Assembly (NCBI RefSeq): GCF_030643805.1
Contig: NZ_CP094656.1
Span: forward strand, 186,001 to 250,000
Source: Alkalihalobacillus sp. AL-G
GTDB taxonomy: Bacteria > Bacillota > Bacilli > Bacillales > Fictibacillaceae
DNA length: 64,000 bases
Direction: 5' to 3'
Below the pieces are notes generated by a model. That model did no database searches and was not told the origin of the DNA. It was given only the letters and a program-made list of their open reading frames with translations. Numbering within the stretch: the stretch's first letter is position 1; each line of letters opens with the position of its first letter. Position numbers and translations under genes: made by a program. Below are positions 20,493 to 35,641 of the stretch, in pieces.

Positions 20493-20534
20493 ATACTATT
20501 AGTTATTTCCCCCCAACAGGGAGGTCTATTAAGT

Positions 20535-22337
20535 ATGTGTGGAATTGTCGGATACATTGGGAAAGAAGATACGAAGGAAATTTTATTAAAAGGATTAGAG
20601 AAGCTTGAATACCGTGGATATGACTCTGCAGGGATCGCAGTACTGAACGAGGAAGGCGTACATGTTTTTAAAGAAAAAGGACGGATTGCCACTCTTCGTG
20701 AAAACGTGGATCAGAACGTACCAGCAAACATTGGAATCGGACATACGCGCTGGGCAACTCATGGCCCGCCAAGTAAAACGAACGCGCATCCACATCAAAG
20801 TACATCGAAACGCTTTACACTCGTTCACAATGGAGTGATCGAAAACTTTACGCAAATCTGTAAAGAGTTCTTGAGTGGCGTTGAACTTGAGAGTGAAACG
20901 GATACAGAAATCATCGTTCAATTGATCGAGCATTTTGTGAAAGAGGGGAATGACGTTGAATCTGCATTCCGCGAAACATTATCACTATTAAAGGGCTCTT
21001 ATGCATTAGCATTGCTTGATAATGAAAACCCGGAAACGATTTACGTCGGGAAAAATAAAAGCCCGCTCTTAGTCGGTCTTGGTAAAGGGTATAACGTTGT
21101 TGCAAGTGACGCAATGGCCATGCTCCAAAAAACAGACCAATTCGTTGAGCTGATGGATGAAGAGATCGTGCTTGTTTCACGCGATGACGTTACGATCAAG
21201 AACCTGGACGGGGAAAGCATTGCTCGTGATCCATTCACAGCAGAGCTTGACGCAAGCGATATTGAAAAGGGTACGTACCCTCACTATATGTTAAAAGAAA
21301 CTGATGAACAGCCTTTGGTTGTCCGTAATATCATTAGAGAATATCAGGACGAAAAGGGTAATTTGAAGCTCGATGACGATGTACGTAAAGCGATGAAAAA
21401 GACGGATCGCATTTACATCATCGCCTGTGGAACGTCTTACCATGCAGGGCTTGTCGGTAAGCAGTTGATTGAAAAGATTGCCGAAGTACCAGTTGAAGTT
21501 CACATTGCGAGTGAATTTTCGTACAACATGCCGTTATTGTCTGAAAAACCATTGTTCATCTTCATTTCGCAAAGCGGGGAAACGGCAGACAGCCGTGCAG
21601 TGCTCGTGCAGGTGAAGAAACTTGGTCACAAGGCTTTGACGCTTACAAACGCAGCAGGTTCAACGCTGTCCCGTGAAGCGGACTACACGTTATTGCTGCA
21701 TGCTGGACCTGAAATCGCTGTAGCATCAACAAAAGCGTATACAGCACAAATGGCGGTTCTAGCGATTCTTGCAGTCGATACAGCGCGTGCGAAAGGCATT
21801 GAACTCGACTTCGATCCAATCAAGGAACTCAGTATCGTAGCCAATGCGATGGAATCTCTCTGTGATAAGAAGGAAGAGCTTGAAAGGATTGCACGTGAAT
21901 ACCTTGCAGTCACACGCAATTGCTTCTTTATCGGACGCGGACTTGACTATTATGTCGTTATGGAAGGTGCACTAAAGCTTAAGGAAATCTCCTACATCCA
22001 GGCAGAAGGCTTTGCTGGAGGAGAGCTCAAGCACGGCACAATCGCCTTGATTGAGGAAGGGACTCCTGTCATTGCACTTGCAACACAGGAACACGTGAAC
22101 CTAAGCATTCGTGGAAATGTAAAAGAGGTTGCGGCACGCGGTGCCTACACATGTGTCATCAGTACAGAGTCACTGCATGATGATGGCGATCGCATTGTCA
22201 TTCCAGACGTACATGAATACCTGACACCGCTCGTCAGCGTCATCCCGTTGCAGCTTATCGCCTACTACGCAGCACTGCACCGCGACTGCGACGTCGACAA
22301 GCCACGGAACCTAGCTAAAAGCGTTACAGTGGAATAG
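20535..22337 (+). CDS. glmS: Glutamine-fructose-6-phosphate aminotransferase GlmS
   Basis: Makes glucosamine-6-phosphate from fructose-6-phosphate and glutamine, the entry step to UDP-GlcNAc. The N-terminal Ntn glutaminase domain begins MCGIVGYIG with the nucleophile Cys2, and two SIS isomerase domains follow (about residues 285-420 and 455-590; CGTSYHAG and SQSGETADS are visible). The ATG at 20535 is required to expose Cys2 and follows GGGAGG; the frame upstream to 20460 is spurious. 600 residues. Expression is set by the promoter at 20089 and the ribozyme. Confidence 0.97.
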
Positions 22338-22432
22338 GATAGGTATAAAAATTGTTCTGTTGTTGAGTTACAAAGAAGTCGTATATTATAAATAATATAT
22401 TTCACCCTAAGAGATCATTAGTTCTAAACTAT

Positions 22433-22482
22433 ATCCCGAATAATGGACACTTATAAAAAAGTCCACTATTCGGGATTTTTTG
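22433..22482 (+). terminator. glmS terminator
   Basis: Long stem ATCCCGAATAATGGAC / GTCCACTATTCGGGAT followed by T residues, about 95 nt after the glmS stop. Confidence 0.9.
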
Positions 22483-22700
22483 TGTAAACTAACATAGAAA
22501 ACCATCAAAACAAATGGAGAGAACGGGGAAATCAAATATGAGTAAACGTAACTTTGAAGGAATTTCAACGGAAACAACTAGAAAATAATGCGAATGGGAG
22601 CCACTCATAAAATGATAGAGAATACGATATGGTCGCTATAAAAATCCTAAGCACGTCCTACAACAGCGCGAACCCAATCCAGTGAGTTATTGTTATTTTC
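22483..22700. other. Intergenic stretch without a supported gene
   Basis: It holds only a short frame (about 16 codons from ATG 22538, with a plausible SD) and AT-rich sequence with scattered stops. It may be an eroded gene. The island promoter begins after it. Confidence 0.4.
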
Positions 22701-22709
22701 AAAATATTA

Positions 22710-22737
22710 TTGAAATAAATAAATAGGTATGTATAAT
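22710..22737 (+). promoter_or_regulatory. Predicted promoter of the ecfS transcription unit
   Basis: TTGAAA at 22710-22715, 16-nt spacer, TATAAT at 22732-22737. The upstream CAAAATATTA and this spacing are the same as at the lacI promoter (24556-24583), which suggests co-regulation. Confidence 0.65.
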
Positions 22738-22747
22738 AAGAACAAAC

Positions 22748-22760
22748 GGGAAACGTTTTT
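22748..22760. promoter_or_regulatory. Operator-like site O1 (degenerate)
   Basis: GGGAAACGTTTTT, 10 of 12 matches to GGAAACGTTTCC, placed about 10 nt after the -10 box where a repressor would block initiation. Confidence 0.5.
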
Positions 22761-22836
22761 ATATTTAAAACAATGGGAAAAGGTATCATTTATCCGTTTT
22801 TTGCAAATGGTAAAGACATCTTTTTCTATATTTTAG

Positions 22837-22848
22837 GGAAACGTTTCC
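22837..22848. promoter_or_regulatory. LacI-type operator O2 in the ecfS leader
   Basis: Perfect palindrome GGAAACGTTTCC, 88 nt downstream of O1. The LacI-family protein encoded at 24661 is the likely ligand. Confidence 0.7.
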
Positions 22849-22963
22849 ACATCATCTGGAAAGATGGACAACCTATTCGAAACCGCAAACAACTCAGCAT
22901 ATTAGAAATCACACAACCAATTATGAAAGCGGATTCATAGGTGAGTAATGGTTAGGAGGTGGG

Positions 22964-22990
22964 ATGAAAAAGGCGCTTTCCAGGCAGTAG
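22964..22990 (+). CDS. 8-codon upstream ORF with strong SD
   Basis: ATG at 22964 preceded by TTAGGAGGTGGG and closed by TAG after eight codons (MKKALSRQ). It ends 30 nt before the S-component start. It may be a leader peptide affecting ecfS translation or a fortuitous frame. Confidence 0.3.
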   Translation: MKKALSRQ

Positions 22991-23020
22991 TACAAAAAAT
23001 TTGATTTGAGGAGGTAAATG

Positions 23021-23644
23021 ATGAGAAAGAAGATGAATTCGAGTTTCTTTGTTGCAATGATTCCTGCTGGTATCGCGTTGAACTGGGTTGCAAATTCGAT
23101 CGTAGAATTATTGAAACTACCGTTGTTTTTGAATAATATCGGTACCGTATTGAATGCAATTGTGCTAGGTCCGATTTGGGGTGTTGTCACCGCTCTCTTG
23201 ACCAATACAGTACTGGGCCTCATCGTCAGGTGGACATACTTCCCATTTGCTCTGGTTGGAATGTTTGTGGCTTATCTCTCTTATTTGTTCTATAAGAAAG
23301 GCTGGTTCAACAAGTTTTGGAAGGTTCTTGTTGCTGGGGCGATAACAGGTGCACTTGGAGCTGTAATCGCGACCTTTATATCAGTGTTTGTATTCGGAGG
23401 TTTCTCCGGGCATACGAACGATGTCATTACGGCGGGACTGATCGCAACTGGACAAAGTATTTTCAGCTCAGCATTCATAGCGAACATGCCAACTACAATG
23501 CTTGATAAAATTTTAACCTTCTATATCGTCTGGGGTATTTTGAAAATCTTCCCTGCACGCTACTTACCTAATGCAAAAGAAATTCGCGAAAAGCTAGGAT
23601 TAAATAACCGTACAAAAAGTAAAGATGACGATTTGACCGCATGA
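23021..23644 (+). CDS. ECF transporter S component, predicted nucleoside-type substrate
   Basis: Integral membrane substrate-binding subunit of an energy-coupling-factor importer. It has about 207 residues with five to six hydrophobic segments, an N-terminal region with NNIGTVLNAIVLGPIWGVV and an AxxxA-like small-residue face typical of S components. The T subunit and two ATPases at 25724-28336 complete the transporter. ATG 23021 is spaced 6 nt from GAGGAGG (ATG 23018 is possible). The family alone does not give the substrate; the neighbouring nucleoside phosphorylases suggest a nucleoside. It is the first gene of the LacI-regulated island. Confidence 0.8.
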   Translation: MRKKMNSSFFVAMIPAGIALNWVANSIVELLKLPLFLNNIGTVLNAIVLGPIWGVVTALLTNTVLGLIVRWTYFPFALVGMFVAYLSYLFYKKGWFNKFWKVLVAGAITGALGAVIATFISVFVFGGFSGHTNDVITAGLIATGQSIFSSAFIANMPTTMLDKILTFYIVWGILKIFPARYLPNAKEIREKLGLNNRTKSKDDDLTA

Positions 23645-23703
23645 TCCTTTTTCGTTAAAGGCATTTCATCACAAAGAACTAACTAACAGAAGGAGTGTAG
23701 GCA

Positions 23704-24489
23704 GTGAAATTTGTTCGTTTTCAATTGAAGGGTACTGATAAGATTTCAACCGGTTTACTCACAGATTCAAGAATAAAAGAAATAACAGGGGATATTTTTG
23801 GCTACTGGATTTTAACAGAAACTATCTACGATGAAAAGGAAGTGATTTTACTTTCTCCGGTTGTGCCGAACCAGGTTATTGGAATCGGGGCGAATTTTGT
23901 TTCGACAAAAGAGGAGCTGCCAGAAAACCTTCCTGATATGCCAGTGTTTTTCTTCAAACCGACCTCGTCAGTTATCGGTACTGGAGAGACGATTAAGCTC
24001 CCGAATGGAGTGGATAAGGTTAAATTCGAATCAGAATTAGCTGTCATCATAGGAAAGGAAGCTAAAGATCTTTCTGAAAGTGAAGTCAACGATTATATCT
24101 TCGGATACACAGTTGCAAACGATGTCACTGCCCCTGAATATTTTCACCCTGATGGGCATTGGACAATCGGAAAATCATTCGATTCATTCACGCCGCTAGG
24201 TCCAGCTATTGAGACAAACCTTGACCTTAAATCAATCCACGTGCAATCCTATTTGAATGATGAGAAACAGCAAGATGGCGAATTGGGCTTGATGATCCTG
24301 TCACTTCAAAAAATGGTTTCTTATCTATCCACTGTGATGACATTGAAGCCTGGAGATGTAATTTTGACAGGAGCTCCAGTAGGTGCTGGCTATTTGGTGG
24401 AAGGCGATACGATCGAGTGCCGAATCGAAGGGATCGGTTCCTTGAAAAATCAGGTTAGTAAAACAAGAAGGGCTGCAGCAACCGTATAA
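23704..24489 (+). CDS. Fumarylacetoacetate hydrolase family protein
   Basis: FAH-superfamily enzyme; members hydrolyse, decarboxylate or isomerise 2-oxo or 1,3-diketo acids with a divalent metal. The C-terminal FAH fold is clear: KFESELAVIIGK, VANDVTAPE, GKSFDSFTPLGP and LKPGDVILTGAPVGAGY. 261 residues, GTG start after GAAGGAGTG. It lies 59 nt after ecfS and before the lacI promoter, so it is probably co-transcribed with ecfS. A role in nucleoside breakdown is not established; it may act on an acid released from the base or a side chain of the substrate. Confidence 0.85.
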   Translation: MKFVRFQLKGTDKISTGLLTDSRIKEITGDIFGYWILTETIYDEKEVILLSPVVPNQVIGIGANFVSTKEELPENLPDMPVFFFKPTSSVIGTGETIKLPNGVDKVKFESELAVIIGKEAKDLSESEVNDYIFGYTVANDVTAPEYFHPDGHWTIGKSFDSFTPLGPAIETNLDLKSIHVQSYLNDEKQQDGELGLMILSLQKMVSYLSTVMTLKPGDVILTGAPVGAGYLVEGDTIECRIEGIGSLKNQVSKTRRAAATV

Positions 24490-24513
24490 AAGGTTTATTC
24501 TATTGGGATATCA

Positions 24514-24525
24514 GGAAACGTTTCC
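24514..24525. promoter_or_regulatory. LacI-type operator O3, upstream of the lacI promoter
   Basis: Perfect GGAAACGTTTCC palindrome 30 nt upstream of the -35 box. Confidence 0.72.
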
Positions 24526-24555
24526 ACAAAAATCGATAAAATTATCAAAATATTA

Positions 24556-24583
24556 TTGAAATTTAAAAACCAAAACGTATAAT
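24556..24583 (+). promoter_or_regulatory. Promoter of the lacI-family gene
   Basis: TTGAAA at 24556-24561, 16-nt spacer, TATAAT at 24578-24583, with the same CAAAATATTATTGAAAT block as the ecfS promoter. Confidence 0.7.
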
Positions 24584-24622
24584 AGTAGACAAGTAATACA
24601 AAAAACTACTTTTACAGATAAG

Positions 24623-24634
24623 GGAAACGTTTCC
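24623..24634. promoter_or_regulatory. LacI-type operator O4, downstream of the lacI promoter
   Basis: Perfect GGAAACGTTTCC palindrome 109 nt from O3, a spacing that would allow a repression loop across the promoter. Confidence 0.72.
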
Positions 24635-24660
24635 ATATTTCAATAGGATGTGAAAAACAA

Positions 24661-25665
24661 ATGGCTACGATTAAAGATGTGGCAAAACGTGCAAATGTTG
24701 CGATTTCCACTGTTTCAAGAGTACTGAACAATAGTGGATACACAAGTGAAGAAACGAGACAAAAGGTTCTCAAAACCGTGAAAGAACTTAATTTTCGGTC
24801 GAATATGATCGCTTCTGCTATGATCAACAAGAAAACCTCGACATTCGGACTGATCATCCCGGACATCAAAAATATTTTTTATGGTGATTTGACGAGAGCG
24901 GTTGAAGACATGGCCAATAAATATGGCTACAATGTCATTCTCTGCAATACCGATAATGACCTTGATAAGGAAGCTGAATACGTAAGCTTTTTAGTCCGAA
25001 AAGGAGTAGACGCGATTATTTTTTCAACGCCAGAAGTGCGGGACCGAAATATCAAAGAGTTGATCGAAGGGTATCCTGACTTACCCGTCATTCTTTTAGG
25101 AAGTACCGTAAAAGGTGTTGAGTTGGATGAAGTGCTTGTTGATAACTTTCAAGGTGGACACACAGCCACCACTCATCTTCTAAAAAAGGGGCATCGCAGG
25201 ATCGCACATATCACCGGACAGACGAGTTCTTATGCAACCATTGAACGTAAAAAAGGCTTTGAAGAAGCACTGAAGGAATTTGAGGTTTCAATCAATGAAG
25301 ACTGGATCATCACAGATGAGTTCAAAATTGAAAGCGGATACAAGAATGGTCTGAAACTTCTACAAGAAGAAAATCGTCCGACTGCCGTCTTTGCTGGAAA
25401 TGATGCGATTGCCACTGGCGTGTACCGGGCAGCCAGGGAGTTAGGGTTGTCTATCCCAGAGGATCTTTCAGTTGTCGGATTTGATGATTCTGAATATGCA
25501 CAGATTTTGTACCCATTACTCACAACGATACGAACACCGATCGGTGATATGGGAGCAAGGGCAGTTGAATTCGGTATTCAGACGATTGAAGGCAAGAAGC
25601 AATTCAAAGAAACGCTCGTGTTCCGGCCGACACTTATAGAAAGAGACTCTACTGCAATCGTATGA
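24661..25665 (+). CDS. LacI-family transcriptional regulator
   Basis: LacI/GalR-family DNA-binding regulator of 334 residues. The N-terminal helix-turn-helix is ATIKDVAKRANVAISTVSRV and the C-terminal part is a periplasmic-binding-like sensor domain (VVGFDDSEYAQILYP near residue 275-290). It is flanked by two perfect GGAAACGTTTCC operators and lies inside the transporter/catabolic island, so autoregulation and control of the island are likely. The effector is unknown; a nucleoside or its sugar phosphate would fit. Next gene ecfT starts 58 nt later with no terminator between, so read-through is possible. Confidence 0.92.
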   Translation: MATIKDVAKRANVAISTVSRVLNNSGYTSEETRQKVLKTVKELNFRSNMIASAMINKKTSTFGLIIPDIKNIFYGDLTRAVEDMANKYGYNVILCNTDNDLDKEAEYVSFLVRKGVDAIIFSTPEVRDRNIKELIEGYPDLPVILLGSTVKGVELDEVLVDNFQGGHTATTHLLKKGHRRIAHITGQTSSYATIERKKGFEEALKEFEVSINEDWIITDEFKIESGYKNGLKLLQEENRPTAVFAGNDAIATGVYRAARELGLSIPEDLSVVGFDDSEYAQILYPLLTTIRTPIGDMGARAVEFGIQTIEGKKQFKETLVFRPTLIERDSTAIV

Positions 25666-25723
25666 GAATGATCACCTCCCTTCAATAAGGTAGGCAATTG
25701 TGTTTTATAAAGGAGGAAAAAAT

Positions 25724-26617
25724 GTGAATAGCCTGTTTGTACAAAAGGACAGTCTGATCCACAAGCTTGATCCGAGAACAAAAATCATTTTTCTGCTCTT
25801 TGTCGTCATCAGTACGTTTTTGCTAGGAGATCCGGCTTTTCAGTTGGTGTTGTTGGTCTTCTTGCTGCCAATTGTCTTTATGTCCAAGCTGCTCAAGCAA
25901 TATCTGATTTCTATGCAGTTTCTGATGCTGTTTGTCGTGTTGATCATGACGGTGCACGGAATCTATAACCCGATCGGGGAGACCGTAATTTGGGAGATTG
26001 GTTCTGTATCCTTCAAATATGAATCGCTCGTTTATGCTTCAGTCATGTCTTTCAGGATATTGGTGATCGGTACTGGCGCAGTTTTGTTTGTGATGACAAC
26101 ACACCCATCCGATCTAGCGGCGGCATTGATAAAGTGGAAAGTTCCGCACTCAGCAGCTTTCATGCTGCTATCAACCTTTCAAATAATTCCAATCATCGCG
26201 AGAGAAGCTAAGATCGTCATGGAAGCCCAGCAGGCACGATGCCTTGATGTAAAAGGAAGCGTCATTCAGCGGGTGAAAAGTTTGATTCCTCTTTTCGCCC
26301 CGTTATTTATCATTACCTTTATGAAGGTTCATCAATTGTCGTATGTATTGGAATGCAGAGGATTCAGCACAAAAGGAAAGAAGACAAGCCTTCGAGAATC
26401 AAAGATTTCCAAACTAGACTATATCTTCTTAAGCGGACTCTTACTCGCGTTGGTTGGTGAAATCTATCTCAGATTGGTGACAAGCGGTGCTTTAACTTTG
26501 ACAACAGATGTGTTATTGATCAGCTCGTTGATTACGGTCTGGGTTGTCTGTGGTATTCTTGCTGTGAAATTTTTATACAAGCGGGTGCATAGTTGGATTG
26601 GAGGATGGAACGTATGA
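25724..26617 (+). CDS. ECF transporter T component (EcfT)
   Basis: Transmembrane energy-coupling subunit that joins the S component to the ATPases. 297 residues with five or so membrane segments and the coupling-helix signatures AQQARCLDVKG and ECRGFSTKGKK, the usual A-R-G type motifs of the T family. GTG 25724 is chosen because AGGAGG lies 7 nt upstream; the earlier GTG at 25700 has none. Its stop overlaps the next start as ATGA, showing translational coupling to the ATPase. Confidence 0.9.
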   Translation: MNSLFVQKDSLIHKLDPRTKIIFLLFVVISTFLLGDPAFQLVLLVFLLPIVFMSKLLKQYLISMQFLMLFVVLIMTVHGIYNPIGETVIWEIGSVSFKYESLVYASVMSFRILVIGTGAVLFVMTTHPSDLAAALIKWKVPHSAAFMLLSTFQIIPIIAREAKIVMEAQQARCLDVKGSVIQRVKSLIPLFAPLFIITFMKVHQLSYVLECRGFSTKGKKTSLRESKISKLDYIFLSGLLLALVGEIYLRLVTSGALTLTTDVLLISSLITVWVVCGILAVKFLYKRVHSWIGGWNV

Positions 26618-27483
26618 AGAAAAATAAAGCGGTCATCGTAGAAAACCTTACATTTCAATATCCTGATACAGATTCCCCTGTCCTGAAGGATATCAGTTTT
26701 TCATTGGAATATGGTGAAATCCTAGGCATCGTCGGTCCAACAGGTGCAGGGAAGTCCACGCTTGCAATGAGTCTGAATGCTTTAGTACCGACTGTGATTG
26801 AAGGAGAAATCAAGGGTAGTATAACGGTTGATGGAAAAGATGTCTCCAAGCAATCTGTTGGGGATATGGCAGGTAGTGTTGGATTCGTGTTTCAAGAGCC
26901 TGAAAACCAATTGTCCCAAATGACGATTGAGGAAGAAGTAGCGTTTGGACTTGGTAACCTTGGCGTTGAACGACAAGAGATGGTGAACAGGATCAAGGAG
27001 TCCTTAAAGGCAGTAGGGCTGCAAGGGTATGAAAAAAGAAGTCCGCTAGCATTATCAGGAGGACAGCAGCAACGTCTTGCTCTTGCAGCAGTTCTGGCTA
27101 TGCGTCCCAATCTCATGATTTTGGATGAGCCGACTTCCATGCTCGACCCACAGGGGAAAAATGAAGTGTTCGATGTACTGAAAGACATAAAATCGCTAGG
27201 GATGACAGGGATCATCATCGATCACGAAGTGGAGAGGCTTGCTGCTTATTGTAATAAGATTCTCGTTTTACATGAGGGAGAATGTAAGATGTTCGGAACA
27301 CCAAAAGAGATTTTCAGTGAACTGGAATCGCTTCATCAGTTAAGTGTCAATGGTCCGCAGGTATCTGAACTTTCCTACAAGATCAATAAAGAATTTGATG
27401 ATAAGGACATGGAAATGCCAATTACTTTAGAAGAAGCTACCAAAGCCTTTAAAAGGAGAACGAGAATTGGGGAGGTGTATTAA
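26614..27483 (+). CDS. ECF transporter ATPase, canonical subunit (EcfA1-like)
   Basis: ABC ATPase of the energy-coupling factor module. Walker A GPTGAGKST (residues 41-49), Q-loop VFQEPENQL, signature LSGGQQQR, Walker B LMILDEPTS and the H-loop His in IIDHEVERL are all intact. 289 residues from ATG 26614, which is in the ATGA overlap with ecfT and 9 nt after GGAGG; the TTG at 26593 is rejected. It pairs with the next gene, which has an altered signature. Confidence 0.92.
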   Translation: MKKNKAVIVENLTFQYPDTDSPVLKDISFSLEYGEILGIVGPTGAGKSTLAMSLNALVPTVIEGEIKGSITVDGKDVSKQSVGDMAGSVGFVFQEPENQLSQMTIEEEVAFGLGNLGVERQEMVNRIKESLKAVGLQGYEKRSPLALSGGQQQRLALAAVLAMRPNLMILDEPTSMLDPQGKNEVFDVLKDIKSLGMTGIIIDHEVERLAAYCNKILVLHEGECKMFGTPKEIFSELESLHQLSVNGPQVSELSYKINKEFDDKDMEMPITLEEATKAFKRRTRIGEVY

Positions 27484-27487
27484 AGAA

Positions 27488-28336
27488 ATGGAACCTTTTA
27501 TCTCCGTCAAAAATGCATCGCATGTATATCCGAACGGCGTAAAAGCGATTGAAGAAATTGATCTTGATATCGGAAGCGGGGAAGTCGTTGCTGTTCTTGG
27601 GAGTAATGGATCAGGTAAAACGACATTGGTCAAACATTTCAACGGGTTATTGAAACCGACCGACGGGGACGTATTCGTTGGAGACCTGAATACGAAAAAA
27701 GAACGTATTGCAAAACTTTCAAGTATGGTTGGCTATGTCTTTCAAAATCCCAATCACCAAACTTTTTTACCAACTGTGAGAGAGGAGCTTCTCTATGGTT
27801 GTAAAAATTTAAAGTTATCGGATGACGAAATCAGGACGCGTGCCAAAAAAGCGATTGATATGTTTGATTTACGCGATCTTTTAGATACTAATCCTTTTGA
27901 TCTTAATTCCAGTAAACGAAAAGAAGTGGCGATGGCCTCGATCATGGCAATCTCTCCACGGGTAGTCGTTCTGGATGAACCGACGACAGGACAGGATCAT
28001 AAAGGCTGTTCACGAGTATTGGACCTAGTCAGAACGTTCAAAGAGCATGGACATATTGTCGTTCTTATCAGTCATGATATGAAGCTGATCGGTGAGCTCA
28101 ACTGTCGAGTTGTGGTCATGAGCAACAGCAGAAAAATAGCTGATGAAAAGGCGGATGTCGTGTTCCGCAACAAGGAAATCATGATTCAGGCAGGTCTTCA
28201 GCCTCCGCAAATAACCCAACTGGCTGAAAAGCTATCCTATGTGGATCAAAAACAAACATTTCTAACAGTGGATTCACTTGTAAATTGGTATAGGAAAAAC
28301 CAAAAGGAGGAAGAAAAAATTGTTGCAGGAACTTGA
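27488..28336 (+). CDS. ECF transporter ATPase with degenerate signature (EcfA2-like)
   Basis: Second ABC ATPase of the ECF module, 282 residues. Walker A GSNGSGKTT (38-46), Q-loop FQNPNHQTF, Walker B VVVLDEPTT and H-loop ISHDM are intact. The ABC signature, normally LSGGQ, reads LNSSKRKEVA at residues 139-148. The heterodimer would then have one canonical and one impaired composite site, a known asymmetry in other ABC systems but not one I know as usual for ECF. ATG 27488 follows GGGGAGG. It overlaps the next gene by about 17 nt. Confidence 0.9.
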   Translation: MEPFISVKNASHVYPNGVKAIEEIDLDIGSGEVVAVLGSNGSGKTTLVKHFNGLLKPTDGDVFVGDLNTKKERIAKLSSMVGYVFQNPNHQTFLPTVREELLYGCKNLKLSDDEIRTRAKKAIDMFDLRDLLDTNPFDLNSSKRKEVAMASIMAISPRVVVLDEPTTGQDHKGCSRVLDLVRTFKEHGHIVVLISHDMKLIGELNCRVVVMSNSRKIADEKADVVFRNKEIMIQAGLQPPQITQLAEKLSYVDQKQTFLTVDSLVNWYRKNQKEEEKIVAGT

Positions 28337-29180
28337 AAACAAATGGGAAACAAAAGCCAACCGTCCTGAATTGGAAGATGGATCACAATATCATATCCGG
28401 TGCCGTCCAGGCGATGTAGCGAAATATGTGCTGCTTCCAGGTGATCCCGACCGTGTGCCGATGATGGCTGAGCACTGGGATGAAAAGCGGGAAATTGCAA
28501 GCTACCGCGAGCATGTCACGTATACTGGGAAAGTCGGCGGGGTAGATATCTCAGCATGTTCAACAGGTGCTGGCGGACCTTCGACGGCCAGTGCGCTTGA
28601 AGAACTGGCAGAAGTGGGTGCTGATAGCTTCATCAGAGTAGGAACTTGTGCAGCACTTCAAGAGAATATTGCACCAGGGGATCTCATCATCTGTTCTGGA
28701 GCTGTAAGGTATGACGGGACAAGTGATCAATATGTCGATCCAAAGTACCCGGCAGTTGCGAATCAAGAAGTTGTCATGGCATTGATTGAGGCGGCAGAAC
28801 GATTAGGCGTCACCTACCATGTCGGGATCGGGTATACTTCCGCTTCATTCTTCTGCGGACAAGGGCGCCCAGGATTCAATAACTACCGCCAGGGATTCAT
28901 GGATCAAATTATAAAAGATGCACAGCAGGCTGGTGTTGTGAATTTCGAAATGGAAGCGGCTACTGTCCTGACACTAAGCAGTCTCTTTAAATTACGAGCT
29001 GGAGCAGTATTTTCCGTCGTAGCCAACCGAATCAAAGACCAATTTTCCTATCAGAAGTCCGGGGTCGAACAATCAATCGCAGTGTCAACGGAAGCCTTCA
29101 AGATTTTACATGAATGGGACGAACTTAAGAAAAAATCAGGCAAGCCTTATTTTTATCCATCACTACTGACAAATAAATAA
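28320..29180 (+). CDS. Nucleoside phosphorylase (NP-I, uridine phosphorylase-like)
   Basis: Cleaves the N-glycosidic bond of a nucleoside with phosphate, giving ribose-1-phosphate and base. It has the hexameric NP-I/Udp pattern: LLPGDPDRV near the N-terminus, RVGTCAALQ, and NFEMEAATVLTLSSL for the ribose and base site. 286 residues. TTG start (28320 or 28323) after AAAGGAGGAAG, inside the end of the ATPase gene. Base preference cannot be told. It sits next to a second phosphorylase of a different family, so the two may serve different bases or steps. Confidence 0.88.
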   Translation: MLQELENKWETKANRPELEDGSQYHIRCRPGDVAKYVLLPGDPDRVPMMAEHWDEKREIASYREHVTYTGKVGGVDISACSTGAGGPSTASALEELAEVGADSFIRVGTCAALQENIAPGDLIICSGAVRYDGTSDQYVDPKYPAVANQEVVMALIEAAERLGVTYHVGIGYTSASFFCGQGRPGFNNYRQGFMDQIIKDAQQAGVVNFEMEAATVLTLSSLFKLRAGAVFSVVANRIKDQFSYQKSGVEQSIAVSTEAFKILHEWDELKKKSGKPYFYPSLLTNK

Positions 29181-29208
29181 AACTAGGTGAGAAAGGAGCA
29201 GTCATTCA

Positions 29209-30009
29209 ATGAAAAAAGTGGGAGTAATCGGAGGTACAGGATTTTACGATCTATTGGAGCAATCGGAGGAAATCAACGTAAAGACAGACTTTGGGGATGT
29301 GTTCTTATATAAAGGGAACTACGCCGATAAGGAAGTCTATTTCCTGCCGCGTCATGGCAAAAATCATGATTCGCTTGCACATGAAATCAACTATCGGGGA
29401 AACATGGTTGCATTGAAAGAACTCGGTATTGAACATGTCCTTTCGATGTGTGCGGTCGGTTCATTGACTCTTGATATCCCAGTCGGCGGATTCGCCCTTC
29501 TCGATCAGTTTGTCGATGTGACGACGAACCGAGTGAAAACATATGGAAAGTACTCCGTGGACATCACGAACCCGTATTGCGAAAATCTTCGCCAGAATTT
29601 CCTCGAAGCAGCAGAAGAGGTTGGAATCGATCTTGTTCCGAAAGCAACGTACATCTGTGTAGACGGTCCTCGTTACGAGACAGGGGCAGAAATCCAGCTT
29701 TATAAAAACTGGGGAATGGATGTTGTCGGCATGACGAATAGTACGGAAGCCTCCCTTGCACGAGAACTCGGCCTTGCCTATTCGGTTGTGACATTGACCA
29801 CCGATATTGCAGCCGGAATCAGTGATGTCGCACCAGATCTTGAAATGCACAAAAATGTCGTCATTGAAAACAAACAGAAAATGATCGATCTTTTCTTGGC
29901 GGCTATCAAGCGAGTTGATACGAATAAAGAATCTGAAGCGAAGCAGGCATACGAACGCGCATTGAAAGCTCGGGAAGAAAAGCTCAAAAATAGCGTTCCA
30001 GTAAGCTGA
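29209..30009 (+). CDS. MTAP/PNP-family nucleoside phosphorylase
   Basis: Trimeric class nucleoside phosphorylase, related to 5'-methylthioadenosine phosphorylase. Motifs: GGTGFYD (N-terminal phosphate loop), PRHG, HEINYRGNM, CAVGSL, GPRYET and GMTNSTEA. The base-site segment reads TLTTDIAAGIS: the Asp is the residue MTAP enzymes use for 6-aminopurines, but the AAGIS that follows is like 6-oxopurine phosphorylases. 266 residues. ATG after AAAGGAG, 28 nt after the previous gene; it overlaps the amidohydrolase start. Substrate could be a 5'-modified purine nucleoside. Confidence 0.87.
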   Translation: MKKVGVIGGTGFYDLLEQSEEINVKTDFGDVFLYKGNYADKEVYFLPRHGKNHDSLAHEINYRGNMVALKELGIEHVLSMCAVGSLTLDIPVGGFALLDQFVDVTTNRVKTYGKYSVDITNPYCENLRQNFLEAAEEVGIDLVPKATYICVDGPRYETGAEIQLYKNWGMDVVGMTNSTEASLARELGLAYSVVTLTTDIAAGISDVAPDLEMHKNVVIENKQKMIDLFLAAIKRVDTNKESEAKQAYERALKAREEKLKNSVPVS

Positions 30010-31451
30010 TGAAAAAGCTGATCCATAATGCAACCATCGTTGACAGTTCGTCAAAGGTGTTTGAGGGAAGCCTCCTTATCGACGGCGATAAGATCAAGGA
30101 AGTCCGGGCTGGGAGTTTGCCAATCGATTCGGATATCGATGAGACCATCGATGCTTCCGGAAGGATTGTCATACCGGGTATGGTGAATGCCCACTACCAC
30201 TCTTATTCGAATGTCTTAAAAGGGACAACGAATAATCTGCCATTGGAAATCTGGTCGCTTTATACCGTTGCTTATGGGCATTCGTTAACAGAAGAAGAGT
30301 TGGAGCTCGCCGTTTTACTCGGGGCGATCGAGATGATCAAAAACGGTACGACTGCATGTATCGATCACTATCCACACTTGGTTGGATCGAATGCTGCGTT
30401 AAAGGCTTACGAGAAAACAGGAATGCGTATAGGGTTTGCTCCGATGATGCATGATGTACCGGACCATCATTTTCTTAACGTGAAACTGCCGAATTATTTT
30501 AAGAAAAAGCTTGACGATGCACCACGAAAGTCAGTCGGTGAGGTAGATGACTATTACCGCGGGCTGATTGAGGCCTGGCACAACAAGAACGGAAACATCG
30601 AAATTATGCTCGGTCCGAACGCACCACAGCGCTGTTCCTCTGACATGCTGAACCTGTGCAGGGAATTAAGTGAAGAGTTCGGATTAGCAGTACACACTCA
30701 TTTGCTCGAAACGAAGGGGCAACTGATAAGCGGTGTGGAAACGTTTCCCGACGGAATATTCGGCCATTTGAAGGAGCACGGACTGCTTTCAGAAAAACTA
30801 TCCGTTGCACATGCTGTAATACTCAAAAATAACGAAATTGAGCTTCTTAGGGGTCACGGTGTGACAGTCGTCCATAATCCTGCGAGCAATATGACCTTGG
30901 GAAGCGGCAAAGCTCCGATCCATCACTTTTTAAATGAAACAAGTAAACTCGCAATTGGGACAGACGCATCGAATTGCGGTACCCAGCACAATCTTTTCGA
31001 AGCAATGAGATTAGCCGCGATGTGGCACCGTGTAGATGAACCAGACTATCAAAAGTGGCCTCAATCTGTGGATGTATGGCGGATGGCAACGGCTGGCGGT
31101 GCCGGTGTCTTTTCAAATGACAGTGTATTAGGACGAATTACGGAAGGTGCTGCAGCTGATCTCGTGTTTTTAAAAGCGACGGGCACTTCCTTTACCCCCC
31201 TTCAGGATCCTGTTACACAACTCGTATTTCAGGAAAATGGAAGGTCGGTAGATTCAGTGATGGTCGCTGGCGAGTGGGTGATGAAGGATGGGAGCCTTAC
31301 TACATTGAATGAGAGGGAGATCCTTGAGGAAGTTCGGGAAAGAACGGAACACCTTATGTCTCATTCTAAACAACAAGTAGAGCTGGCAGATCAGCTCGCT
31401 CCTTACTTTAAACAAAGATATGATGAGCTACAACGTGAAAATTACAATTAG
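30009..31451 (+). CDS. Amidohydrolase, nucleoside/base deaminase-like
   Basis: TRZ/ATZ-type amidohydrolase of 480 residues. The metal ligands are visible: H62-Y-H64 in NAHYHS, His in AVHTHLLE, His in VAHAVI and Asp in IGTDASNCG. Relatives deaminate S-adenosylhomocysteine, methylthioadenosine, 5'-deoxyadenosine, cytosine or 8-oxoguanine. The ATG overlaps the stop of the phosphorylase by one base (TGATG), which ties the two. In this operon it may deaminate the nucleoside or the freed purine base. A perfect GGAAACGTTTCC operator lies inside the gene at 30737-30748. Confidence 0.85.
   Translation: MKKLIHNATIVDSSSKVFEGSLLIDGDKIKEVRAGSLPIDSDIDETIDASGRIVIPGMVNAHYHSYSNVLKGTTNNLPLEIWSLYTVAYGHSLTEEELELAVLLGAIEMIKNGTTACIDHYPHLVGSNAALKAYEKTGMRIGFAPMMHDVPDHHFLNVKLPNYFKKKLDDAPRKSVGEVDDYYRGLIEAWHNKNGNIEIMLGPNAPQRCSSDMLNLCRELSEEFGLAVHTHLLETKGQLISGVETFPDGIFGHLKEHGLLSEKLSVAHAVILKNNEIELLRGHGVTVVHNPASNMTLGSGKAPIHHFLNETSKLAIGTDASNCGTQHNLFEAMRLAAMWHRVDEPDYQKWPQSVDVWRMATAGGAGVFSNDSVLGRITEGAAADLVFLKATGTSFTPLQDPVTQLVFQENGRSVDSVMVAGEWVMKDGSLTTLNEREILEEVRERTEHLMSHSKQQVELADQLAPYFKQRYDELQRENYN
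30737..30748. promoter_or_regulatory. Intragenic LacI-type operator O5
   Basis: Perfect GGAAACGTTTCC palindrome inside the amidohydrolase gene, about 6.1 kb from O4. It could act as a distal operator or roadblock. Confidence 0.55.
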
Positions 31452-31462
31452 GAGGGTTTAAC

Positions 31463-32071
31463 ATGTCGGTCGAATTACTAAAAAAAGAATTGGCTTATGT
31501 CTCTCATAAGGTTTATCAAAAAGGCTACACACAAGCAACGGGAGGAAACATCAGCGTACGTATACCAGGAACAGATACGGTTTTGATCAAACGAAGCGGT
31601 GTCAGTCTTGGTGAAGTGACAACCGAAGATGCTCTTATCGTCAATATGGAAGGGGAAGTCATCGAAGGACAGGGAAAACCGTCTAAAGAAATCGGCTTTC
31701 ACCTTGGTGTTTATAAGGTCCGTCCGGATGTAAATGCGGTCGTCCATTGTCATCCGAACTATGCGATTGGGTATGCGATTCTAGGCCAGGAGCTTCCGCT
31801 TCCTACGGTTACAGCCCGCAAGCTGCTCGAGTATGTGCCTGTAGCGGGTGTCGCTCCATCAGGATCAAAGGAGCTCGCAGAGAATGTAACCAATGTGTAT
31901 AAGAACAATCCTGGAATCAAAGTATGCCTTCTTGAACAACACGGAATTTGCGCAGTCGGACCAACTCTTGAAGCGGCTTATAATGTGGCAGATTTGACAG
32001 AAGCAACTGCAAAACAGGCCTTCATCTCTTCACAAATCAAGGCGAACCTACCGGTGCCTGTGACTCAATAA
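31463..32071 (+). CDS. Class II aldolase (fuculose-phosphate / DrdA-like)
   Basis: Zinc-dependent class II aldolase/adducin-family enzyme of 202 residues. GGNISVR, KRSGVSLGE, KPSKEIGFH (catalytic Glu), VVHCHPNYA (HxH zinc ligands) and EQHG (third His) are all present. Family members split ketose-1-phosphates to DHAP and an aldehyde. Next to an MtnA-like isomerase and phosphorylases, a 5-deoxyribulose-1-phosphate or ribulose-1-phosphate aldolase role is the best inference. ATG after AGGAGGG, 11 nt behind the amidohydrolase. It does not look like the MtnB dehydratase by context, since no mtnK, mtnW, mtnX or mtnD is present. Confidence 0.87.
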   Translation: MSVELLKKELAYVSHKVYQKGYTQATGGNISVRIPGTDTVLIKRSGVSLGEVTTEDALIVNMEGEVIEGQGKPSKEIGFHLGVYKVRPDVNAVVHCHPNYAIGYAILGQELPLPTVTARKLLEYVPVAGVAPSGSKELAENVTNVYKNNPGIKVCLLEQHGICAVGPTLEAAYNVADLTEATAKQAFISSQIKANLPVPVTQ

Positions 32072-32084
32072 GGAGGTATCTTTT

Positions 32085-33155
32085 ATGAAAACGATCCAAC
32101 AGCTTACTGATGAGTTTCTTGAACAGAAGCTTGCTTTACCGATATGGTTTGAAGACGGCACACTGAAATTGCTTGATCAGTTGAAGCTCCCATTTGAAGA
32201 AGAGGTTTATACGATTACAGCGGTGCCAGAGCTGGCGGATGCGATAAAGAACATGAACATTCGCGGTTCTGGAGCAATTGGTATTTCAGGAGCTTACGGC
32301 CTGTACCTTGCTGCATTGAATTCGACCGGCCATGAACAAAGCATACGGGAGGCAGGGGCATTGCTTAAAAGTACAAGACCAACAGCGGTCAACCTTATGA
32401 AAACGATCGATGAAGTCTTATCCATTGTAAATGGTAAAGGAACAGAATTGATTACAAAGGTTGAACAGAAGGTAGTAGAAATTTTAGAACGCCAGCTTGC
32501 GTTTGAACATCAGCTCGGCGAACACGGTGCATCCCTGATCAAGGATGGCGACACGATCATGACCCATTGCCACTCAGGGGCAGTCGGAGGCTCTGGCTAC
32601 GGCGGTCGTGCTCTATCGGTTATACGGAAGGCATTCGACCTCGGTAAGGAAATCCACGTCTTCACGTGTGAAACGCGGCCATATCTGCAGGGGGCTCGGA
32701 TTACAGCCTATGAATTAAAGAAATTCGGCATCCCTCATACGTTGATTACTGATAACATGTCCGCCTACTGCATGAGTAAAGGGATGATTGATAAGGTTGT
32801 CGTCGGCTCCGACCGGGTAGCAGGGAACGGGGACCTTGCCAATAAAATTGGAACGTATATGCATGCGTTAGCTGCAAAGGCTCATTCAGTTCCATTCTAC
32901 ACCGCGACATCGAGTCACACGATTGATTTCAGCTCAGAAAGCGGGGAGTCGATCGAAGTAGAAATGAGGAACGCGAAGGAAGTAACACACTTGAATGGTA
33001 CACCGATTGCACCGGAAGGCACGAATGCGTTGTATCCCTCATTCGATGTCACACCGAATGATCTTATCACAGGCATCATTACCGAAAAAGGAGTCGTTTC
33101 ACAACCGTTTAGCCAAAACCTCAAGGCTCTTGAGTTAGAAAAAACGTTTCAATAG
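32085..33155 (+). CDS. MtnA-family aldose-1-phosphate isomerase
   Basis: Homologue of methylthioribose-1-phosphate isomerase and of 5-deoxyribose-1-phosphate isomerase DrdI, 356 residues. The catalytic Cys lies in THCHSGAVGG and the catalytic Asp in GSDRVAGNGD; ETRPYLQGARITA and ITDNMSAY are strongly family-like. It would turn a ribose-1-phosphate made by the phosphorylases to the 1-phospho-ketose for the adjacent aldolase. It differs from MtnA at NIRGSGAIG (usually VRGAPAIG), which supports a divergent substrate. AAGGAGG SD, 13 nt after the aldolase gene. Confidence 0.86.
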   Translation: MKTIQQLTDEFLEQKLALPIWFEDGTLKLLDQLKLPFEEEVYTITAVPELADAIKNMNIRGSGAIGISGAYGLYLAALNSTGHEQSIREAGALLKSTRPTAVNLMKTIDEVLSIVNGKGTELITKVEQKVVEILERQLAFEHQLGEHGASLIKDGDTIMTHCHSGAVGGSGYGGRALSVIRKAFDLGKEIHVFTCETRPYLQGARITAYELKKFGIPHTLITDNMSAYCMSKGMIDKVVVGSDRVAGNGDLANKIGTYMHALAAKAHSVPFYTATSSHTIDFSSESGESIEVEMRNAKEVTHLNGTPIAPEGTNALYPSFDVTPNDLITGIITEKGVVSQPFSQNLKALELEKTFQ

Positions 33156-33176
33156 AGACAGATTGAGGAGGATACT

Positions 33177-33350
33177 ATGTTGAAAGATGCTGTACTCGCT
33201 CTAGTAGCTGGATTTGTAGTTGGTGCTGTATTCAAAATGATCAAGCTGCCATTGCCTGCTCCCCCGATATTAGCTGGTGTCCTTGGAGTAGCAGGTGTTT
33301 ACCTAGGCGGAAAATTCATAGAGACGATTGTTCTGAAGCTATCATCATAA
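33177..33350 (+). CDS. XapX-like small membrane protein (57 aa)
   Basis: A small gene with ATG at 33177 behind GAGGAGG and a stop at 33350. The 57-residue product has two hydrophobic segments and the central PLPAPPILAGVLGVAGVYLG that matches the XapX/DUF1427 pattern. In E. coli XapX belongs to the xanthosine (xap) locus, so finding it among nucleoside phosphorylases is a consistent context. Its function is unknown. It lies 21 nt after the isomerase gene and 57 nt before malate synthase. Confidence 0.78.
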   Translation: MLKDAVLALVAGFVVGAVFKMIKLPLPAPPILAGVLGVAGVYLGGKFIETIVLKLSS

Positions 33351-33407
33351 ATGATCTTTTTAAAGTAGGCCGTATTAAACTGTTTAGTATGTAAGGAGGA
33401 ATGAACC

Positions 33408-35588
33408 ATGAGTGACTACGTGCAAGTCGGCGATCTTCATATCGCACGAGAATTATATGAGTTCATCAATTCAGAGGCAATACCAGGCAGTGAAGTGACA
33501 AGTGAACAGTTCTGGTCTGGGTTGGAAGGTATCATAAAAGAATTATCTCCGAAAAACAAATCATTGTTGGAAAAGCGTACGGAATTACAAACAAAAATCA
33601 ACAACTGGCATAAGGAGAATTTCGAAACATTCGATTTTGACGCTTACAAGTCATTTCTAAAAGAAATCAACTATTTAGAATCTCAACCTGAGGAATTCGA
33701 GGTTACGACGGAAAATGTAGATGATGAGATTGCAGCTCAAGCGGGGCCTCAACTAGTCGTACCGATCAATAATGCCCGGTATGCGATCAATGCCGCTAAT
33801 GCACGCTGGGGAAGTCTCTATGACGCCCTTTATGGAACAGATGCAATTTCCGAAGAAAATGGGGCTGTGCGCAAGGACTTCTATAATCCGGTCCGCGGAG
33901 ATCGAGTGATTGCATACGCGAAGGAATTCCTCGATGAAACCGTTCCATTGACCGGCTCTTCCCATAAAGAGGCTGTTTCCTACGCAATCGTCGATGGCGA
34001 ACTCTCGGTTTCACTGAAAGACGGACAAACTGTATGTTTGAAGGATGTTTCCCAGCTTGTCGGATGTAAGGGTCAACCTCGGGAACCTAAAGCGGTACTA
34101 TTGAAGAATAACGGACTCCACCTGGAAATCCAAATTGATCGTACACATCCGATTGGATCGACGGATGAGGCAGGAGTTAAAGATATATTGATGGAATCAG
34201 CGTTGACGACAATCATGGATTGCGAGGATTCAGTCGCTGCAGTTGATACCGAGGATAAAGTATTGGTCTATCGGAACATGCTGGGCTTACTGAAGGGGGA
34301 TTTATCCGTCACCTTTCAAAAAGGCGGTAAATCCGTTACGCGATCACTGAATCCGGACCGTCATTACAAAACGACGGATAACGAGGAGTTGACTCTACCA
34401 GGTCGATCACTCATGTTTATCCGGACCGTCGGGCATTTGATGACCAGCAATGCGGTTCTCGACCATAACGGAAATGAGGTTCCAGAAGGAATACTGGACA
34501 CTGTCATTACAGGACTGATCGGGAAACAAGACGTTTTAGGAAATGGAGGTTACAACAATTCCAAGGAAGGCTCGGTTTACATCGTTAAGCCGAAAATGCA
34601 TGGTTCAGAGGAAGTTGCCTTTGCGAATGAACTATTCAATCGTACCGAAGATATCGTTGGACTTGAGAGAAACACCCTGAAAATAGGTGTGATGGATGAA
34701 GAACGCAGGACGACATTGAATTTGAAAGCTTGCATCAGTGAAGTGAAGGAACGCATCGTGTTCATCAACACAGGCTTTTTGGATCGTACCGGAGACGAAA
34801 TCCATACGTCGATTGAAGCAGGTCCAGTCATCCGTAAGAATGAGATGAAATCATCGAAATGGCTGCAGGGATATGAGAAATCAAATGTAAAAGCAGGACT
34901 TGAAAGCGGATTGCAAGGCCGCGCGCAAATCGGTAAAGGAATGTGGGCGATGCCGGACCGTATGGCGGATATGCTAGAGCAAAAGGGAGGCCAGCTTGAA
35001 GCCGGAGCGAACACGGCGTGGGTACCATCCCCTACGGCGGCAACACTACATGCACTCCATTATCATAAAATCGATGTTTCCGAGGTGCAACGAGATTTAG
35101 CTTATAAACTGGTGGACTATCAAAATGATATCCTCGAAATTCCATTGGCCGTAAACCCTGATTGGAGCCCGGAGGAAATCCAAGAGGAACTGGATAACAA
35201 CGCGCAAGGAATTCTGGGATACGTTGTCCGCTGGGTGGAACAAGGAGTCGGCTGCTCGAAAGTTCCTGATATCCATAACGTTGGACTGATGGAAGACCGG
35301 GCGACTCTCCGAATTTCAAGCCAGCATATTGCCAATTGGCTGCATCACGGAATCTGCACGAGAGAGCAAGTGCTGGAAACGTTCAAACGGATGGCAAAGG
35401 TGGTCGATGAGCAAAATGCGGGGGATCCGGATTACAAGTCGATGTCTCCTGACTTTGAAAACTCCGTCGCATTCCAGGCTGCCTGCGAATTGGTATTCGA
35501 AGGCCATAACCAACCGAACGGATATACAGAACCGATTCTGCACCGACGCCGAATCGAAGCAAAATCCAAAGTACTCGTAAAAAAATAA
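33408..35588 (+). CDS. glcB: Malate synthase G
   Basis: Condenses glyoxylate with acetyl-CoA to malate. 726 residues is the size of the G isoform (glycolate type), larger than isoform [39 protein letters not shown] and [11 protein letters not shown]-like segments mark the TIM barrel, and the catalytic Asp lies in the C-terminal region of [16 protein letters not shown] after AAGGAGGA. No isocitrate lyase is in the window, so glyoxylate must come from elsewhere: glycolaldehyde/glycolate or purine-ring breakdown are the options. It is the last gene of the island. Confidence 0.94.
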
Positions 35589-35603
35589 AACCATATACTT
35601 TTT

Positions 35604-35641
35604 AAGGACCATTGACCAAAAATGATCAGTGGTCCTTTTTA
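35604..35641 (+). terminator. Terminator after malate synthase G
   Basis: AAGGACCATTGA / TCAGTGGTCCTT stem followed by T residues. Confidence 0.88.

Follow-up and report, generated by a model that had tools for sequence, protein, structure and literature searches.

What becomes of the sugar of a nucleoside when a bacterium encodes phosphorylases next to an isomerase and an aldolase? In the textbook account, phosphopentomutase channels the ribose 1-phosphate of nucleosides towards the pentose phosphate pathway. In the 64,000-nucleotide stretch of Alkalihalobacillus sp. AL-G DNA analysed here (the window, positions 186001-250000 of the 4.16 Mb single-contig genome; coordinates below are window positions unless given in Mb or with a locus label), thirteen genes spanning 23018-35588, all on the plus strand, combine two nucleoside phosphorylases with an energy-coupling factor (ECF) transporter, an MtnA-family isomerase, a class II aldolase and a malate synthase. 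A sequence-only reading had described them as a LacI-controlled island that takes up a (modified) nucleoside and splits its sugar into dihydroxyacetone phosphate (DHAP) and a C2 aldehyde. Our analysis favours, with a probability of roughly 0.65, an inducible operon for ordinary ribonucleosides that would run a ribose version of the DHAP shunt. With slightly less assurance, and still as the probable case, we propose an unmodified-ribonucleoside route bypassing the pentose phosphate pathway, in which the MtnA-type subfamily would be a true ribose-1-phosphate isomerase, the products would be DHAP and glycolaldehyde, the malate synthase GlcB would collect the C2 unit and the ECF importer would be dedicated to the route.

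All thirteen genes that the sequence-only reading had listed were found in place and on the plus strand:

23018-23644, plus strand: ECF transporter S component, CD3073 family (NF045596, E = 1.6e-35, 122 bits, cut-off 180)
23704-24489, plus strand: FAH-family protein (Pfam FAA_hydrolase, 199 bits; 53% identity to the FAH paralogue of the glycolate operon)
24661-25665, plus strand: LacI-family repressor, RbsR/PurR-like (NCBIfam RbsR model, 274 bits, cut-off of 382 not reached)
25700-26617, plus strand: ECF T component, EcfT/CbiQ-like (Pfam CbiQ, 108 bits against a cut-off of 25)
26593-27483, plus strand: ECF ATPase 1 (top match TIGR04520, 263 bits, cut-off 315)
27467-28336, plus strand: ECF ATPase 2 (top match TIGR04521, 235 bits, cut-off 330)
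28320-29180, plus strand: UdpL, uridine-phosphorylase-like (TIGR01718, 269 bits, cut-off 280)
29209-30009, plus strand: MtapL, trimeric-type (MTAP/PNP) purine nucleoside phosphorylase (TIGR01694, 232 bits, cut-off 275)
30009-31451, plus strand: AmiH, amidohydrolase of nucleoside or base deaminase type (signature matches the amidohydrolase of a nucleoside-hydrolase/ECF operon)
31463-32071, plus strand: class II (fuculose-phosphate-type) aldolase (Pfam Aldolase_II, 160 bits; Glu, HxH and third His present)
32085-33155, plus strand: MtnAL, MtnA-family protein and putative ribose-1-phosphate isomerase (TIGR00512, 369 bits, above the cut-off of 279)
33177-33350, plus strand: XapX-domain small protein (TIGR03510, 58 bits, above the cut-off of 28)
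33408-35588, plus strand: malate synthase G (GlcB), the genome's second copy (TIGR01345, 1215 bits, above the cut-off of 989)

As had been described, the genes mostly overlap or are closely spaced: they overlap or are separated by at most 59 bp, except for 171 bp ahead of lacI, a gap that contains a second promoter and two operators. The ECF S-T-A-A transporter of the sequence-only reading is complete in that all four components are encoded, but its S gene is not contiguous with the T-A-A genes, being set apart from them by the FAH gene and lacI.

To place the cluster, genome contigs were scanned with the isomerase and the best 80 of 221 matches were kept. Twelve of these 80 showed 60-73% identity and the remaining 68 at most 46%, the closest relatives being Bacillaceae-type organisms. 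Ten core genes (lacI, S, T, the two ATPases, UdpL, MtapL, AmiH, the aldolase and MtnAL) were all present together in 8 of the 12 loci of this isomerase subfamily, namely in Neobacillus, four Thalassobacillus, two Halobacillus and Moorella stamsii, and because they recur together in this way, the association of these genes is not due to chance. Their order is not constant, as lacI precedes S in Moorella and Aquibacillus and S comes first in the other loci. Nine of the 12 clade loci carry lacI, and in nine of the 12 an S gene (56-76% identity) is found alongside the phosphorylase-isomerase core. A UdpL homologue (61-81% identical) was present in 11 of the 12 clade loci, in none of the 68 other MtnA-family loci of the scan, many of which are short contigs and mostly archaeal, and in none of the 29 canonical MtnA loci of the class, of which about 1.5 kb was read on each side. 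An MTAP-type phosphorylase was likewise found in 11 of the 12 clade loci and in one of the 68 others, but also in 25 of the 29 canonical loci, and only UdpL therefore separates the island from canonical loci. Those 29 loci further contained an amidohydrolase in 27 cases and an aldolase-family gene, which could be an MtnB-type dehydratase, in nine. The subfamily is rare: in the matches listed from 398 genomes of the class, no isomerase but that of the window exceeded 47% identity, and across 34 family genomes no S component other than the window's own exceeded 38%.

Canonical MtnA genes of the class (loci L148-L176) often stand with an amidohydrolase and a phosphorylase bearing a PNP-like TN...G...H motif, and these sets, nine of 29 with an aldolase-family gene, are perhaps a deaminate-first DHAP shunt or a methionine salvage set. 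The quartet of the island appears to have been recruited from the deaminase-phosphorylase-isomerase-aldolase set salvaging 5'-modified nucleosides.

The isomerase itself belongs to the MtnA family by its score and retains C162 and D243, which we take to be the catalytic residues, yet it differs from the canonical enzymes in conserved motifs. In an alignment of 13 island rows with 36 reference rows, made up of 27 bacterial sequences from the 29 best other matches of the class (two with inner stops being left out) and nine of the 68 other scan loci, and without characterised DrdI sequences, the island isomerases formed a separate clade with a support of 100/100. Fixed differences (13 of 13 island rows against 36 of 36 references) were S62/A, G63/P, Q137/D, H163/N, R175/T, I206/L and T273/V, to which P276S can be added in 12 of 13 island rows against P in all 36 references, and several of the replacements go from non-polar to polar (listed as A62S, P63G, N163H, T175R, V273T and P276S). 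The conserved RGAP and CN motifs of the 36 references are thus read as RGSG and CHSG in all 13 island rows. As seven of the nine canonical loci with an aldolase-family neighbour are among the aligned rows, the island clade also differs at these positions from likely DHAP-shunt isomerases. The gene content characteristic of the DHAP shunt, an isomerase and class II aldolase pair fed by a phosphorylase, is present, and the Glu and three His (HxH and a third His) expected of fuculose-phosphate-type enzymes are conserved in the aldolase. The 13 proteins of the island, to which the search was confined, include neither a ribose-1-phosphate kinase nor a ribulose-bisphosphate phosphatase.

The enzymes expected to act before the isomerase also carry marks of their own. 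All 12 UdpL copies have the N-terminal His, GQxR and EME motifs of uridine phosphorylases, of which the Gln and Arg of GQxR presumably bind uracil and the N-terminal His the 5'-OH. In MtapL, S116, which we equate with a residue lining the 5' pocket in human MTAP, is present in 13 of 13 sequences against His in all 25 phosphorylases beside canonical MtnA, and D199 in 11 of 13 against Asn in the same 25; S116 was retained as a putative 5'-site difference. Y63, N204, Q207, R208 and L233 of AmiH are shared by all 10 island copies and by none of the 27 amidohydrolases encoded next to canonical MtnA, and this signature recurs in a family member's genome, in the amidohydrolase of an operon combining a nucleoside hydrolase with ECF genes.

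For the importer, the T component and the two ATPases have CbiQ/EcfT (with the Pfam cut-off passed) and ECF ATPases as their best matches, while NCBIfam cut-offs were not reached. An AlphaFold model of the S protein was of low confidence (predicted local distance difference test 65, predicted template modelling score 0.61) and bore a weak likeness to ECF S components; among its ten best PDB matches, all with E-values of at least 0.2, nine were titled ECF S component or ECF transporter and the first merely "a transporter". For the neighbourhoods of S relatives, 20 regions with 21 S genes of about 26-39% identity were taken from more than 50 places listed; the sample consists mostly of top matches with a few lower ones and is not random. 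Genes were sought there with window proteins, a nucleoside hydrolase (RihA and RihC as best NCBIfam matches, below cut-off), and two proteins that pass their cut-offs, a ribokinase and a desulfidase related to CD3072/TudS. For 11 of the 21 S genes, a gene for a nucleoside hydrolase or a uridine-phosphorylase-like protein lay on the same strand at a distance of no more than 5 kb, several of them also with a ribokinase; the search further gave a TudS-related gene for three, and none of the sought genes within 5 kb for seven. These associations suggest a nucleoside as the putative substrate of the S component. The three desulfidase genes adjoin CD3073-type S genes (L120:10206-11259, L121:7322-8402 and L124:7925-9020), which suggests that these particular S components import thio-nucleosides or thiobases.

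Put together, these proteins would form the following route. The complete ECF transporter (S, T and two ATPases) would take up nucleosides, which would be phosphorolysed to free base and ribose 1-phosphate by UdpL in the case of uridine and by MtapL, aided by the deaminase AmiH, in the case of purine nucleosides. The MtnA-family enzyme would then convert ribose 1-phosphate directly into ribulose 1-phosphate, bypassing phosphopentomutase, and the class II aldolase would cleave this into DHAP and glycolaldehyde. An aldehyde dehydrogenase encoded elsewhere would oxidise glycolaldehyde to glycolate and glycolate oxidase would yield glyoxylate, which malate synthase G would join to acetyl-CoA; a derivative of malate or oxaloacetate is the probable substrate of the FAH protein. 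Two promoters would be repressed by the local LacI protein. Family membership, synteny and the regulon thus agree with the core of what the sequence-only reading had proposed, a nucleoside importer, phosphorylase, isomerase and aldolase yielding DHAP and a C2 aldehyde, whereas its suggestion that the nucleoside is modified has become less likely.

The malate synthase and FAH genes bear most directly on which aldehyde is released. Elsewhere in the genome, at 1.166-1.173 Mb, lies a glycolate operon in which a malate synthase G gene, neighboured by a divergent LysR-type gene, precedes GlcE-, GlcF-, GlcD- and FAH-like genes (the malate synthase and the GlcD-type protein named by profile scores, the others by the look of their sequences). 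Its malate synthase (1165890-1168081 of the genome) is 74.5% identical to island GlcB, and the rejected idea that the island copy is the sole malate synthase of the organism fell with this second gene. The island therefore carries paralogues of two of the five glycolate operon genes, GlcB and FAH. In the nine islands with a complete core, both genes were present in six and both absent in three. Because GlcB and the FAH paralogue argue for a C2 unit that leads to glyoxylate, plain ribose is favoured over a 5'-deoxy or methylthio sugar, and we regard the pairing as the strongest sign that the aldolase would release glycolaldehyde and hence that the ribose would be unmodified.

Several observations weigh against this reading. 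S, UdpL and MtapL all score under their NCBIfam cut-offs, and 10 of the 21 S-family loci lack a nucleoside-cleaving gene. Two features that had seemed to speak for the pathway had to be dropped: a phosphorylase adjoining the isomerase (12 of 12 clade loci against one of 68) is no special mark, given the MTAP homologue in 25 of 29 canonical MtnA loci, and His214 of MtapL, which aligns with a His of a PunA-like protein from the same genome and might have indicated a substrate with a 5'-OH, is carried equally by each of the 25 phosphorylases encoded next to canonical MtnA. The ordinary route is also encoded, with deoB (over cut-off) together with punA- and pdp-like genes, named from their sequences, at 2.48 Mb, and the island is thus not needed for the use of ribose 1-phosphate. 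No aldehyde dehydrogenase is present in the window's island, so that the step from glycolaldehyde to glycolate must be encoded elsewhere; the genome holds nine homologues, at most 53% identical, of the aldehyde dehydrogenase in the Alkalihalobacillus algicola variant of the cluster. An isocitrate lyase is encoded as well, and GlcB might therefore serve the glyoxylate shunt. Three of the nine complete-core islands do without FAH and GlcB, and window GlcB shares 74.5% identity with the other copy in its own genome but just 66-68% with the GlcBs from Thalassobacillus and Halobacillus islands, whereas island FAHs are 58-63% identical to one another against 53% to the glycolate-operon paralogue. 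As it is nearer to the second copy of its genome, window GlcB may have a different history in the island from that of its relatives; a replacement or a repeated recruitment in this lineage may account for this, or gene conversion between the two copies is possible. Finally, for the kinase route of canonical methionine salvage, a search confined to methylthioribose kinase gave no match in the genome, with two control genomes positive, and a second MtnA homologue is absent; the island isomerase could accordingly have a second job on methylthioribose 1-phosphate.

The alternative that survives best accepts a nucleoside operon as proposed and takes FAH and GlcB as unrelated passengers, with glycolaldehyde reduced to ethylene glycol or otherwise handled. 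The three complete-core islands that lack both genes, that of Moorella included, and the resemblance of window GlcB to the genome's other copy rather than to the island copies of relatives would suit this view, as would the reduction of glycolaldehyde to ethylene glycol in haloarchaea (PMC9700705). We consider it unlikely, however, since FAH and GlcB are jointly present or absent in all nine complete-core islands, are paralogues of genes from one and the same glycolate operon, and occupy two different places in the island, a pattern for which the insertion of one passenger does not account.

A classical DHAP shunt for 5'-deoxyadenosine or methylthioadenosine, equipped with an importer, would instead have AmiH and MtapL act on a 5'-modified nucleoside and the aldolase release acetaldehyde or methylthioacetaldehyde. 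The enzyme families are the same, clusters of MTAP with canonical MtnA, often with an amidohydrolase or an aldolase-family gene, do occur in the class, and with neither a methylthioribose kinase match nor another MtnA the island isomerase could double in methylthioadenosine disposal. This was the substrate pair named by the sequence-only reading, and we now find it quite unlikely: the operon includes a uridine phosphorylase with the family's signatures, the S family is tied to ribonucleoside hydrolases, GlcB and FAH suit glycolaldehyde and not acetaldehyde, and the isomerase, MtapL through S116, and AmiH through its subtype carry fixed residues that set them apart from their counterparts in canonical clusters. 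That the importer serves a nucleobase, thio-base or vitamin and is loosely coupled to the enzymes seems to us improbable, as the vitamin binding of most characterised ECF S components, the seven of 21 S-family loci without sought genes and the three with a TudS-related desulfidase are countered by the 11 with nucleoside hydrolase or uridine-phosphorylase-like genes, several with ribokinase, and by the S gene that accompanies the phosphorylase-isomerase core in nine of 12 clade loci.

The promoters, operators and terminator of the proposed ribonucleoside operon are as follows:

22710-22737, plus strand: sigma-A-type promoter (TTGAAA-16-TATAAT) for the S-FAH part, agreeing with the consensus at 11 of 12 positions
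22749-22760, no strand: LacI-type operator GGAAACGTTTTT, directly downstream of the 22710 promoter
22837-22848, no strand: LacI-type operator, perfect palindrome GGAAACGTTTCC, one of four genome-wide
24514-24525, no strand: LacI-type operator, perfect palindrome GGAAACGTTTCC, one of four genome-wide
24556-24583, plus strand: sigma-A-type promoter (TTGAAA-16-TATAAT) for lacI and the genes downstream of it, agreeing with the consensus at 11 of 12 positions
24623-24634, no strand: LacI-type operator, perfect palindrome GGAAACGTTTCC, one of four genome-wide
30737-30748, no strand: LacI-type operator, perfect palindrome GGAAACGTTTCC, within the AmiH coding sequence, one of four genome-wide
35604-35637, plus strand: terminator hairpin behind glcB, -18.4 kcal/mol, z -5.4, equalled by none of 200 shuffles, with a T run after it

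The two promoters are the best matches of the region, in which promoter-like sites as a whole are at chance level (21 against 24.0 in shuffles). Each of the four perfect GGAAACGTTTCC sites in the entire genome (4.16 Mb) falls within the island, and the looser pattern GGAAACGTTTYY occurs at nine distinct places, five of them in the island, against 2 + 2 matches for the backward control pattern. A genome-wide look for a wider LacI regulon found none, the four GGAAACGTTTYY places outside the island being single imperfect sites close to genes that show no visible link. Because these sites concentrate in the island, the regulator is very likely local and dedicated to it, in support of the LacI control that had been proposed; the pairing of LacI with these operators and the nature of its ligand are predictions from sequence. 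Upstream regions were examined for nine of the 12 clade loci (L034, L041 and L043 being left out), and all nine had at least one loose LacI-type site, a type common enough to occur 21 times in the 64-kb window. The AAACGTTT core was found upstream of S in seven of nine relatives, or eight of ten counting the window, and the upstream regions of Moorella and Aquibacillus have AAGCGCTT-like sites in its place. The operator inside AmiH lies about 6 kb from the lacI promoter and could serve a repression loop or a roadblock.

Comparison with known systems places the proposed pathway between several described ones. For 5'-deoxynucleosides, PMC12632272, PMC10986504 and PMC6079011 describe a DHAP shunt encoded by mtnK-mtnA-ald2 with a putative transporter in E. 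coli and by a kinase-isomerase-aldolase cluster in Bacillus thuringiensis. Like it, the island pairs an MtnA-family isomerase with a class II aldolase, which would turn a ribose-1-phosphate derivative into DHAP and an aldehyde, and the E. coli operon also has a transporter gene. Unlike it, the island has two phosphorylases, one of them a uridine phosphorylase, an ECF importer, LacI and glyoxylate enzymes, and an isomerase of a separate clade with plain ribose 1-phosphate as the proposed substrate. For haloarchaea, PMC9700705 describes a non-carboxylating pentose bisphosphate pathway in which nucleoside ribose reaches ribulose 1-phosphate and is split by a FucA-type aldolase into DHAP and glycolaldehyde, the very cleavage proposed for the island; as outlined there, ribose 1-phosphate is phosphorylated, isomerised as the bisphosphate and dephosphorylated, and glycolaldehyde is reduced, whereas the island encodes no such kinase or phosphatase and direct isomerisation is proposed. 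The E. coli D-arabinose pathway, as described in PMC6443609, likewise cleaves ribulose 1-phosphate into DHAP and glycolaldehyde with a FucA-type aldolase and has AldA oxidise glycolaldehyde to glycolate, both steps resembling those proposed here, but it begins with a free sugar and a kinase and not with a nucleoside and a phosphorylase. The closest kin of the importer, CD3073-family ECF operons with nucleoside hydrolase and ribokinase, share a related S, T and A subunits of their own, in several cases LacI and once the same AmiH subtype; they seem to hydrolyse the nucleoside and phosphorylate ribose, in contrast to the phosphorolysis, isomerisation and aldol cleavage proposed for the island. 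Ribose metabolism by B. subtilis methionine-salvage enzymes was reportedly described by Nakano and colleagues in 2013, as cited in PMC6302742 and PMC10986504. A review (PMC6302742) states that the promiscuity of methionine-salvage enzymes suffices to convert ribose into homoserine, citing B. subtilis work, and this makes the proposed isomerase step chemically plausible. In the open-licence literature we found no description of a nucleoside ECF importer or of a bacterial ribose-1-phosphate isomerase route, nor any system with exactly this set of genes, in agreement with the sequence-only reading.

If the proposed ribonucleoside route is correct, it would offer a short, kinase-free way from RNA-derived ribose to DHAP and malate, give a function to an ECF S component family so far annotated only as putative, and explain MtnA-like genes in nucleoside operons from Halobacillus to Moorella. 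The fixed residues of the isomerase are candidate diagnostic positions for telling the island subfamily from methionine-salvage isomerases in annotation.

Four of the 12 clade loci are variants: Alkalihalobacillus algicola, a metagenome-assembled genome with a BMP-type ATP-binding cassette transporter and a DeoD-type phosphorylase, a truncated contig from a metagenome-assembled genome, and Aquibacillus albus. In the Alkalihalobacillus algicola cluster (L034:68-6351), the phosphorylase-isomerase-aldolase set is joined by an aldehyde dehydrogenase, a ComB-like phosphatase, an isomerase of the nickel-pincer-dependent kind (group 22) and a dehydratase of the arabinonate (sugar-acid) type, with no ECF or other importer seen within the available stretch, and the cluster perhaps acts on another nucleoside sugar. 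In Aquibacillus albus (L045:8376-11032), a gene for a ComB-like protein (2-phosphosulfolactate phosphatase family) lies between MtapL and MtnAL in a locus without aldolase, UdpL and AmiH, and this protein may dephosphorylate ribulose 1-phosphate.

At its upstream end (20460-22337 and 22340-22700) the island begins directly behind glmS, a gene known as the classical integration site of Tn7-like elements; no transposon gene was noticed among the open reading frames listed around the island, no search aimed at transposons having been made. At the other end, the hairpin behind glcB is absent from the list of a consensus terminator scan, probably because its loop is longer than the scan allows, and this hairpin makes it probable that the genes starting at 35818 form a unit of their own. 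There, between 35818 and 42631, lie a 444-residue protein that resembles a regulator and has no Pfam or NCBIfam match, two M20 amidohydrolases, an allantoate-amidohydrolase-like enzyme and an AbgT-family transporter, which together look like an operon for the utilisation of N-acyl or N-carbamoyl amino acids (p-aminobenzoyl-glutamate-like).

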